34,807 nucleotides of DNA from Haloparvum sedimenti (GTDB lineage Archaea > Halobacteriota > Halobacteria > Halobacteriales > Haloferacaceae): positions 36,229 through 71,035 of the forward strand of contig NZ_LKIR01000068.1 of NCBI RefSeq assembly GCF_001462205.1, read 5' to 3'. The notes under the pieces were generated by a model. The model was not told the DNA's origin. It searched no databases and was given only the letters and a program-made list of their open reading frames with translations. Made by a program: the position numbers and the translations under genes. Position 1 is the stretch's first letter; every line of letters begins with the position of its first letter. This document shows positions 5,130 to 34,807 of the stretch, piece by piece.

Positions 5130-5510
5130 GTCAGAAGATGGTGTTTCTGTGTCTGTTGCAGGTCCTGTTGATCGGGACGGCACCACCCAGAAAGCCCCAG
5201 TCGGCTCGCCCGGCCGCGCCTCGCTGCGCTCCTCGCTCTCCGCACAGCCCGCTGCGGTGCTTACGTCGTCGGGGCCGGATCGAGCCGACTGCCCCTTTCA
5301 GTCCCACCCACCGCACCGCAGGCCTCGCACCTCCCCAGCCTCGGCGGCGGCGCGGCCGCGAAAACCGCACCGCAATGCGGCCGCGCCGCCGCCTCCCTCG
5401 CGCGGTCGCGGCGACACAGGGTCGCCGCGGCGCGCGCCGACAGCACAGCACTGCAACCGCAACGCTCCGCGACCGCACAGCACCGCACCGCCACCAGTTT
5501 CAGAAAAGCG
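5130..5510 (+). repeat. Dispersed structured repeat, copy B
   Basis: This copy fills most of the 630-base gap between pyk and the M20 gene. It has one 5' module. Helix 1 is GAAAG-CCC-CAGTCGGCTCG at 5190-5208 pairing with TCGAGCCGACTG-CCC-CTTTC at 5280-5299. Helix 2 is 17 bp, 5343-5359 with 5377-5393, followed by CTCCCTCGCG. A C-to-T change in the 5' arm of helix 1 relative to the other copies is matched by a G-to-A change in the 3' arm. A further hairpin, GCGGCGAC-loop-GTCGCCGC, lies near 5408-5430. The tail is rich in CACCGCA-like words. Open frames here are not conserved as protein between copies. I see nothing but the M20 promoter in 5511-5631. Confidence 0.85.
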
Positions 5511-5600
5511 AGGTGTCTGAATCGGTCTGCATCACTCAGTATCGCTCTCAAGAATGCGGACTATCGGCAATTTCGGTCGTGCAGTCTGCCGGTGAGGGAA

Positions 5601-13852: not shown

Positions 13853-14320
13853 TTCGAAAGCCCTCGACGGCTGTCCGGACGGCGATTTTTCTGTTCCTGT
13901 TGTCGGTCATGCTGATCGGGACGGCACCACCCAGAAAGCCCCAGCCGGCTCTCTGTACGATGTTCCTGTTGTTTATCCTGCTGCTGGGGCCAGCAACACC
14001 CAGAAAGCCCCAGCCGGCTCGACCGGCCGCGGCACACTCTGCGCTCCTCGCTCTCCGCAACACCCGCTGCGGTGCCTGAGACGGAGTCTCAGACTAGCGA
14101 GTGCTTCGCTCTCGCGTCGCTTGAGGCGCCGGGGCCGGATCGAGCCGGCTGCCCCTTTCAGTCCCACCCCGCACAGCACCGCAACCGCGCCGCAACCGCA
14201 GCCTCGCACCTCCCCAGCCTCGGCGGCGGCGCGGCCGCGGAACAGCACCGCACCGCAGGCGGCCGCGCCGCCGCCTCCCTCGCGCGCGTTCCTCGCGCGC
14301 GCCGACCGCCGTGGATACTG
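13853..14320 (+). repeat. Dispersed structured repeat, copy C
   Basis: This complete copy occupies the 643-base gap between pabC and the Rieske gene. Its 5' modules start at about 13856 (decayed), 13934 and 14003. Helix 1 pairs GAAAG-CCC-CAGCCGGCTCGA (14003-14022) with TCGAGCCGGCTG-CCC-CTTTC (14140-14159): 5 bp, a symmetric CCC/CCC internal loop and 12 bp. It then extends by CCGGCC/GGCCGG after a bulged A. The apical part holds CTGAGAC-GGA-GTCTCAG. Helix 2 is a perfect 17 bp, 14222-14238 with 14259-14275, then CTCCCTCGCG and a GCGCGCG-TTCCT-CGCGCGC hairpin. I see nothing else in 14321-14365. Confidence 0.87.
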
Positions 14321-18276: not shown

Positions 18277-18735
18277 ATGTCCGTTCTCGACGCCGTGATG
18301 TGGACGGTCCATGTCGCGTTCGCCGCACTCTGGACCGGTAGCGTGCTGTTCGTGGTCGCCACCATCCTCCCGTCCGCGACCGCCGGGGAGATCGGCTCCG
18401 AGGCCTTCGGGAGCATCGTCGACCGCCTGCGGTGGATCACCCGGATCTCCGCCGTCGCGTTCCTCGCCTCCGGCGGGCACATGGCCGGCACGCGCTACGA
18501 CGTGGGCACGCTGACGGGAACCGGCAACGGGCACCTCGTTCTGACGATGCTCGGCCTCTGGGTCGTGCTCACCGGCCTCGTGGAGGTCGCCGGGAGCAAG
18601 GTGGAGTCGGGCGTCGACGAGGGCAAGCTCCGCGAGCCCGCTCGCGACGCGAAGCCCTTCTTCCTCGCCGCGGCCGCGGTCGCGGTGCTGCTCCTGATCA
18701 CCGCGGGGCTGCTGGCCAGCAACGCGCTGGCCTGA
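18277..18735 (+). CDS. Four-helix integral membrane protein, CopD/DUF-like
   Basis: The 152-residue protein has four hydrophobic segments: VMWTVHVAFAALWTGSVLFV (8-27), ISAVAFLASGG with a following His-Met, HLVLTMLGLWVVLTGLVEVA, and FFLAAAAVAVLLLITAGLLA. The HVAFAALWTGS pattern and the HM after helix 2 recall the CopD-like/DUF2269 group of small membrane proteins, some of which bind haem or copper. That placement is tentative. There is no signal peptide beyond the first helix. The gene is monocistronic, with its own TATA box and a divergent neighbour encoding an HhH protein. Confidence 0.8.
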   Translation: MSVLDAVMWTVHVAFAALWTGSVLFVVATILPSATAGEIGSEAFGSIVDRLRWITRISAVAFLASGGHMAGTRYDVGTLTGTGNGHLVLTMLGLWVVLTGLVEVAGSKVESGVDEGKLREPARDAKPFFLAAAAVAVLLLITAGLLASNALA

Positions 18736-18779
18736 GAGAGACGGGTCGAACGTCTCGGCCGGCTCTCGCTCATACGCTG

Positions 18780-19345
18780 CCGTGCTCATTTCTGGTCCTG
18801 CTGCTTGGAACAGCACCACCCAGAAAGCCCCGGCCGGCTCTCCGCACGACGTTTCTGCGACTACTGTTGATCCTGCTGATCGGGACGGCACCACCCAGAA
18901 AGCCCCGGCCGGCTCGACCGGCCGTCGTGAGACGGTCCGGGCTGCCTGCGGTAGCGGGCTGCCGGGCTGCGACTCACGGGCTCCCGCTCGTTCCTCGTGG
19001 GAACGCGGCACGCTCTGCGCGCTCGCGCCTCTCCACACAGCCCGTCGCGAGTGCTTGTCTGGCGAGACGGTCCGGGCTGCCTGCAGTGGCGGGCTGCCGG
19101 GCTGCGACTCGCTGACTCTCGCTCGGCAGGCTCGCGAGAGCGGCGCCGGGGCCGGATCGAGCCGGCTGCCCCTTTCAGTCCCACCCCGCACAGCACCGCT
19201 CCGCAGCCTCACGCCTCCCCAACCTCGGTCGCGGGCCGGCCGCGAAACCGCAACGCTGCGCGAGAGACAAGCTCTCGCTGGCCTCCGGCGTGCGGTAGCG
19301 CGCCGGAGACACCGCAGCGCGGCCGGCCCGCGGCCTCCCTCGCGC
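18780..19345 (+). repeat. Dispersed structured repeat, copy D (long form)
   Basis: This is the longest copy, in the 771-base convergent gap before the MATE gene. It has two 5' modules. Helix 1 pairs GAAAG-CCC-CGGCCGGCTCGA (18898-18917) with TCGAGCCGGCTG-CCC-CTTTC (19157-19176), with one G-T wobble. The apical part contains a 47-base direct duplication (18929-18975 and 19064-19110). Each half holds a GCCTGC/GCGGGC hairpin with loop GGTA or AGTG. Helix 2 is 18 bp (19227-19244 with 19318-19335). Three pairs differ from copies B and C on both strands, and one is a wobble. Inside it are two hairpins, 19260-19278 and 19283-19308. The 15-bp tandem array follows directly. Confidence 0.87.
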
Positions 19346-19465
19346 GCGCCGACCGCATCAGCGCCGACCGCATCAGCGCCGACCGCATCAGCGCCGACCG
19401 CATCAGCGCCGACCGCATCAGCGCCGACCGCATCAGCGCCGACCGCATCAGCGCCGACCACATCA
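19346..19465 (+). repeat. 15-bp tandem repeat, eight units
   Basis: GCGCCGACCGCATCA is repeated eight times head to tail. Seven units are perfect and the last has one G-to-A change. It is attached to the 3' end of repeat copy D. The first unit grows out of the CGCGCGCCGACC that also ends copies B and C, so the array probably arose by local expansion of the element's end. There are no spacers, so it is not CRISPR. Translation in any frame gives only five-residue repeats such as VGADA. Confidence 0.95.
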
Positions 19466-19506
19466 GCACCACGATCACCCCGTAGCCGTTCCGTGAGAGT
19501 TCGTCC

Positions 19507-34624: not shown

Positions 34625-34807
34625 GCCGGGGAGAATGCGGTGCTGATTCGGATGCGGTGCTGGTGCGGTCGCGGTGCGGGACGGTGCTGTGCTGTTGGCG
34701 CGCGCGAGCAACGCGCGCGAGGGAGGCGGCGGCGCGGCCGCCTGCGGTGTCTCCAGCGCGCTACTGCACGCTGGAGGCCAGCGGGACGCGGTTTGTCCCG
34801 CGCTGCG
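34625..34807 (-). repeat. Dispersed structured repeat, copy E (partial)
   Basis: Read on the minus strand from the window edge, this is the 3' half of a long-form element. It has the two inner hairpins (plus-strand 34781-34787 with 34795-34801, and 34751-34758 with 34769-34776), the right arm of helix 2 (34725-34741), CTCCCTCGCG, a GCGCGCG hairpin, and a tail rich in CAGCACCGCA words down to about 34630. Its left arm and helix 1 lie outside the window. I see nothing in 34581-34624. Confidence 0.82.

Follow-up and report, generated by a model that had tools for sequence, protein, structure and literature searches.

The question raised by this locus is why the two arms of one hairpin change together between dispersed copies, and what kind of molecule, on which strand, the hairpin would form. 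The hairpin, helix 2, occurs in copies B, C and D within a 34,807-nt stretch of Haloparvum sedimenti DNA (contig NZ_LKIR01000068.1, positions 36,229 to 71,035), hereafter called the window. Re-reading of the sequence agreed with the coordinates and letters of all three helices as first described. Copies B (5343-5393) and C (14222-14275) carry GGCGGCGGCGCGGCCGC and its perfect complement, while copy D has the left arm GGTCGCGGGCCGGCCGCG (19227-19244) and the right arm CGCGGCCGGCCCGCGGCC (19318-19335). As the sequence-only reading had stated, pairs 4, 9 and 10 differ between B/C and D on both sides and in a complementary manner. It had also described pair 3 of D as a wobble, which is correct for the plus strand (T·G), but on the minus strand, the one favoured family-wide, this pair is a C·A mismatch. 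The folding of helix 2 in B, C and D lies far below that of shuffled sequence, with z values from -4.9 to -8.3, and copy D, taken alone, folds better on the plus strand, contrary to the strand bias of the family.

The number of copies in the window's genome was assessed with the conserved 20-mer CTSCCCCTTTCAGTCCCACC, allowing at most three mismatches, and the reversed pattern served as the control. The 20-mer occurred 100 times, 50 times on each strand, and the control once; with copy D as the query, 68 matching places were found (40 of 199 candidates scored). Ninety-four copies were taken with their flanks, and the 88 that could be parsed were sorted by helix type, of which there are about ten. 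Type I, to which B and C belong, has 42 copies, type II, that of D, 17, type IV 10, type V 6, and the rest fewer. Several of these types are present as near-identical copies, and 12 different perfectly paired 14-bp forms of helix 2 exist. Both arms belonged to the same type in 86 of the 88 copies, against 29% expected if the arms were independent. The exceptions were L002, a mosaic of two types, and L015. Thus, the arms do not vary independently, and those of D are not an unrelated palindrome but a helix type of the same family.

Among the 43 distinct helix 2 sequences, 96.7% of the cells were paired (81.6±0.9 when shuffled), 13 of 17 pairs showed double-sided changes (6.7±1.2 when shuffled) and 91 cells were double-changed (31±3 when shuffled). 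The covariation score was 0.375, compared to 0.119±0.011 in the shuffles, and when the partner was slid by one to three positions it reached at most 0.076 in every register. As the covariation exceeds that of the shuffles and is lost on sliding, helix 2 is real. What was not supported was the history proposed for the difference between B/C and D, namely three compensatory pair changes with a wobble as the intermediate. The letters are complementary as claimed, but the helix type of D is common to 17 copies, and replacement of a whole helix between copies explains the difference in one step. Three separate events are therefore unlikely; D carries a different helix type.

Helix 2 forms one part of a larger dispersed, non-coding folded element of haloarchaea. 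Read 5' to 3' on the minus strand for copies B, C and D, the element consists of helix 3, helix 2, a linker, the 18-mer GGTGGGACTGAAAGGGGC, helix 1, GGGGCTTTC and small tail hairpins; the placement of helix 1 between GGTGGGACTGAAAGGGGC and GGGGCTTTC comes from the aligned contexts of 18-mer matches. A scan of 84,980 prokaryotic species found the exact 18-mer in at least 109 stretches of other genomes, and all 80 of the records listed were haloarchaeal. It was absent from the viral contigs scanned, so viruses do not commonly carry the element. Matches to a covariance model built on helix 1 were found in 27 of the roughly 33 Halobacteriales genomes sampled and in none of about 164 other sampled genomes of the phylum; among the genomes sampled in the phylum, the element is restricted to haloarchaea.

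The arms of helix 1 are almost freely variable, with 76 distinct 10-nt arms in 92 copies from many genera, and 945 of 1012 cells (93%) in these 92 copies were Watson-Crick pairs, as opposed to 472±16 (47%) with shuffled partners. RNAalifold placed double-sided changes in 22 of 26 pairs of the helix 1 alignment. The named 21-pair structure of helix 1 (A1) was 92.4% paired, with compensatory changes in 18 of 21 pairs and 274 double-changed cells against 90±8. The closing helix GAAAG/CTTTC becomes CAAAG/CTTTG in another genus. The order-wide alignment further shows conserved internal loops within the covarying helices, and a tandem GA/GA lies inside the covarying helix 3. At some loci (L065, L090, L109, L138, L153, L158 and L160) helix 1 is missing or a stub, e.g., GGGACTGAAAGGGGCCGGGGGCTTTC, the hairpin being gone almost exactly at its base. 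Two helix 1 units facing each other, about 25-30 bp apart and with their sense strands outward, were also seen (L073, L077, L085, L086, L088, L142, L154, L158, L165 and L277).

All parts of B, C and D lie on the minus strand of the window unless stated otherwise. In copy B, the helix 1 domain spans 5190-5308 (model R1, 96.4 bits), and the type I helix 2, identified by sequence and folding, is followed by a long form of helix 3 at 5398-5438, read from the sequence. The corresponding parts of copy C are the helix 1 domain at 14003-14168 (model R1, 61.1 bits), a type I helix 2 identified in the same way and a short form of helix 3, CTCGCGCGCGTTCCTCGCGCGCG, read at 14279-14304. In copy D, the type II left arm of helix 2 was assigned from the sequence and the 17-copy helix type, and the complementary arm from sequence and folding. 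The loop between them (19245-19317, unstranded) is a nested module with two further hairpins, defined by inverted repeat I7 and folding. Other copies have this module too, in the loop of helix 2 and, in some cases, in helix 1. The 18-mer of D, supported by the genome-wide pattern search and the sequence, lies at 19168-19185; the helix 1 arm adjoining GGGGCTTTC was read at 18907-18923 and its partner, with a one-base bulge, at 19150-19167. The tail of D (18781-18906, repeat family D3) consists of duplicated tandem units of a small hairpin and GGGGCTTTC. On the other side, where helix 3 has collapsed, D adjoins about eight copies of the 15-bp tandem repeat GCGCCGACCGCATCA (19346-19475, unstranded; repeat family D2). 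Two further copies lie on the plus strand and cross the edges of the window: the 3' part of one at 1-176 (inverted repeats I1-I5; whole in L014), and the 5' part of another, with helix 3, a helix 2 arm and the nested module, at 34691-34807 (I6, I7 and I23; whole in L008).

Small hairpin modules inserted in helix 1 and helix 2 loops were seen in the window (19245-19317 and 34742-34801) and in L003, L005-L009, L018 and L020, and a second module (GAAAATCGGAGATTTTC...) is nested within the first. The 3' end of the element, i.e., the helix 1 arm with GGGGCTTTC and the small hairpin, is tandemly duplicated two to three times in the window (18781-18915 and 13892-14020) and in L021 and L027. Two more repeats flank many copies, CACTCACGGCGGGAGTTCCGCCC... 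and GATACTGAGTGATGCAGACCGATTCAGACACCTCG... (L003, L010, L012 and L014; L007, L017, L028 and window 5496-5560).

Orthologous loci give an idea of how the helices evolve. Several species of a related genus have the element in the same gene gap, at the asd locus, and the helix 2 arms GTCAGTCGCC, GTCGGGCGGCC, GTCGCTGGC and GTCGGTCGCC each have their own matching complement. At the same locus, L288 and L297 differ by one compensated pair of helix 1, CCGTGAGG/CCTCACGG against CCGCGAGG/CCTCGCGG. Of 39 species in one genus, two have the element at the 3' end of the EF-2 gene, an insertion polymorphism; the downstream flanks of the two copies are alike, while helix 1 is entirely different yet paired in both. 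The flanks of the EF-2 loci with and without the element are too diverged to place the element ends. From these comparisons we infer that whole helices are replaced in place, most simply by gene conversion or re-insertion, and that unpaired products are rare. The central claim of the sequence-only reading, that both arms change jointly and far beyond drift, holds within the genome, at orthologous loci elsewhere and across the order.

The one-sided changes bear on which strand folds, since they should favour G·T over A·C on the folded strand. On the written strand, helix 1 shows 31 A·C and four G·T across genera (p=3.5e-6). In helix 2 of the window's genome, 32 A·C and eight G·T cells were found on this strand; counted by distinct events the bias is weak alone (16:8, p=0.15). 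At the inner pair 48-103, the minus strand has C-G 31 times, U-G 13 times, U-A 7 times and C·A never. The excess of A·C on the written strand supports a folded form made of one strand, namely the minus strand in copies B, C and D. The T·G of D (C·A on the minus strand) is an exception to this bias. A strand-biased mutation rate could produce the wobble bias instead of a fold; weakly against this, no excess of sense C-to-T was found among unpaired 20-mer variants. It had been said that covariation does not distinguish RNA from single-stranded DNA (ssDNA). This still holds in part, but the strand can now be named as the minus strand.

The surroundings of the copies were considered for signs of transcription. 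In the window's genome, the sense 5' end was preceded by a TATA-like sequence in 3 of 85 cases, and the control stretch gave 2 of 85; autonomous transcription from a TATA promoter was rejected for lack of a signal in that genome. In another genus, TATA-like stretches were seen by eye ahead of several of the asd copies. Helix pairing was 96.7% in the 30 copies with an opposed upstream gene and 94.1% in the 53 with a co-directional one, counts that are approximate as the gene calls are based on codon scores and some frames are wrong. As pairing is equally good in both groups, its preservation does not depend on read-through transcription.

Relatives of helix 1 were also found on 41 haloarchaeal plasmids, nearly all of them intergenic, and the gene orientation around annotated plasmid copies is not consistent, all arrangements occurring. 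On megaplasmids of five haloarchaeal families, about 400-630 nt separate one copy from a divergent gene whose product is a conserved OB-fold, SSB-like 'DNA-binding protein' of about 290 amino acids (L345, L346, L347, L348, L350, L351 and L352, positions ~900-1640), and the DNA between the copy and this gene is strongly conserved and rich in hairpins.

The explanation that we consider best, with about an even chance of being correct, is a mobile element kept foldable by selection on a single strand of minus polarity, most likely RNA. Judging from the ortholog comparisons, copies would reach new sites and be overwritten in place by other copies, so that whole helices would be swapped in one step. 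The rarity of copies with mismatched arms is taken to reflect selection for the fold. What is selected would be a single strand of one polarity, as the wobble bias supports, and most likely RNA; the conserved unpaired motifs may be putative binding sites for a trans-acting partner. The wobble bias, the conserved internal loops and the tandem GA/GA in helix 3 point to RNA, while the absent promoter signal, the indifference of pairing to the upstream gene and the inconsistent orientation on plasmids speak against an obvious RNA. More specifically, and more doubtfully, the element may be an undescribed RNA that most haloarchaeal genomes contain, in as many as about 100 copies, and that is kept foldable while it spreads and is overwritten, is either selfish or serves the host, and has its own protein partner.

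Alternatively, the folded form could be ssDNA of the same strand, at a replication fork or as an intermediate of conjugative transfer or transposition, bound by a protein acting on ssDNA and with no role as RNA, which we regard as possible, if rather doubtful. Such a form needs neither a promoter nor a co-directional gene, and it too tolerates G·T. The copies cut off nearly precisely at the base of helix 1 (GGGGCCGGGGGCTTTC; L138, L153 and L158) resemble products of hairpin loss in DNA replication, the SSB-like gene lies close to the megaplasmid copies in several families, and IS605-type TnpA genes, whose products act on ssDNA hairpins, are present. However, a C-G/U-G/U-A series is typical of RNA, as are conserved internal loops, no dedicated enzyme gene was found within the element, and the association with plasmids may reflect one inherited backbone.

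It is improbable that the fold is unselected, with the arms matched by quasipalindrome correction or template switching and the copies overwritten by gene conversion. Whole-helix replacement at orthologous loci, the ten helix 2 types of one genome with several in near-identical copies, and the mosaic L002 would all fit such a process. On the other hand, it predicts G·T to equal A·C, contrary to the 31:4 ratio (A·C:G·T) of helix 1, it leaves the order-wide conservation of unpaired motifs and internal-loop bases unexplained, and arms of different type were seen in just two of 88 copies. Least probable of all, an element acting in cis at the 3' ends of neighbouring genes (as a terminator or mRNA stabiliser) would fit the window's genome, where by approximate counts convergent genes border 24 of 49 gaps with the element against 1 of 22 without it, but it is very unlikely given that other genera lack this enrichment (9 of 67), that plasmid copies occur in all arrangements and that pairing is independent of gene orientation. 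A simple 3'-UTR role is, by the convergent-gap count and the indifference of pairing to orientation, unsupported outside the window's genome.

Rfam gave no match above the gathering score for the whole window or for window 18700-19500, and at the element loci of eight other records only tRNA was above the cut-off; chance microRNA matches and one true tRNA at permissive E-values were discarded. No earlier description of the element was found in open-access papers. Among known systems, the palindrome-associated transposable elements (PATEs) and the small mobile repeats (SMRs) of type SMR-A of Haloquadratum walsbyi are haloarchaeal, transposase-free elements of more than 100 copies with palindromes near their ends (PMC3119063). 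SMRs of this species are inserted within PATE palindromes, different repeats occupy identical sites between strains, and core-deleted short forms exist; the palindromes resemble the ends of IS605-type transposons (PMC3119063). The present element is similar to PATE/SMR-A in copy number, end palindromes, nested elements, swapping at identical sites and core-deleted forms, here those without helix 1. Like PATEs, which lack terminal inverted repeats and a transposase gene, it has its palindromes close to the termini, with helix 3 at one side and helix 1 at the opposite one, and contains no conserved ORF. PATEs also insert without target duplication, a trait for which the EF-2 loci, with their diverged flanks, were compared. 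Unlike those of PATEs, its palindromes do not resemble IS605 ends, and R1 finds none at the IS605-type genes L355, L356 and L357. The element as an IS605 end was rejected, the R1 match beside L354/L219 being a separate copy with the IS inserted in its tail. In L219, an IS605-type transposon (positions 1-1940; tnpA 238-642, tnpB 649-1893) lies in the tail of a copy without helix 1. Neither sense-strand covariation nor an order-wide conserved 18-mer is described for PATEs (PMC3119063).

REP/BIME sequences of the GTAG and CGTC families are dispersed intergenic palindromes of high copy number, often in head-to-head pairs, and REPs are 20-40 bp long with a GTAG or CGTC tag adjoining the stem (PMC3733652). 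The element shares with them its intergenic dispersal, high copy number, head-to-head pairs and stems that vary with pairing kept. It differs in its length of about 120-500 nt, its several helices and its conserved internal loops. Aligned across the order, helix 1 has GGGGC/GGGGC at its foot, the GTAG/CGTC tag being missing. A RAYT transposase is associated with REPs; a search of the present data for Y1 transposases in general gave four matches. HEARO/omega RNAs are large structured non-coding RNAs with many copies per genome. The element resembles these in copy number and in its large structured form, here predicted as RNA, but no nuclease gene is associated with it at the copies examined, and an Rfam match is absent. 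The element is nearest to PATEs/SMRs and REP/BIME, and the defining features tested for each kind were not found in it.

The element is among the commonest non-coding features of haloarchaeal genomes, yet neither Rfam nor the open-access literature searched appears to describe it. The covariation of its helices is very clear within a single genome, which makes its function directly testable, and with about 100 natural copies in one genome, selection on the fold and gene conversion can be separated.
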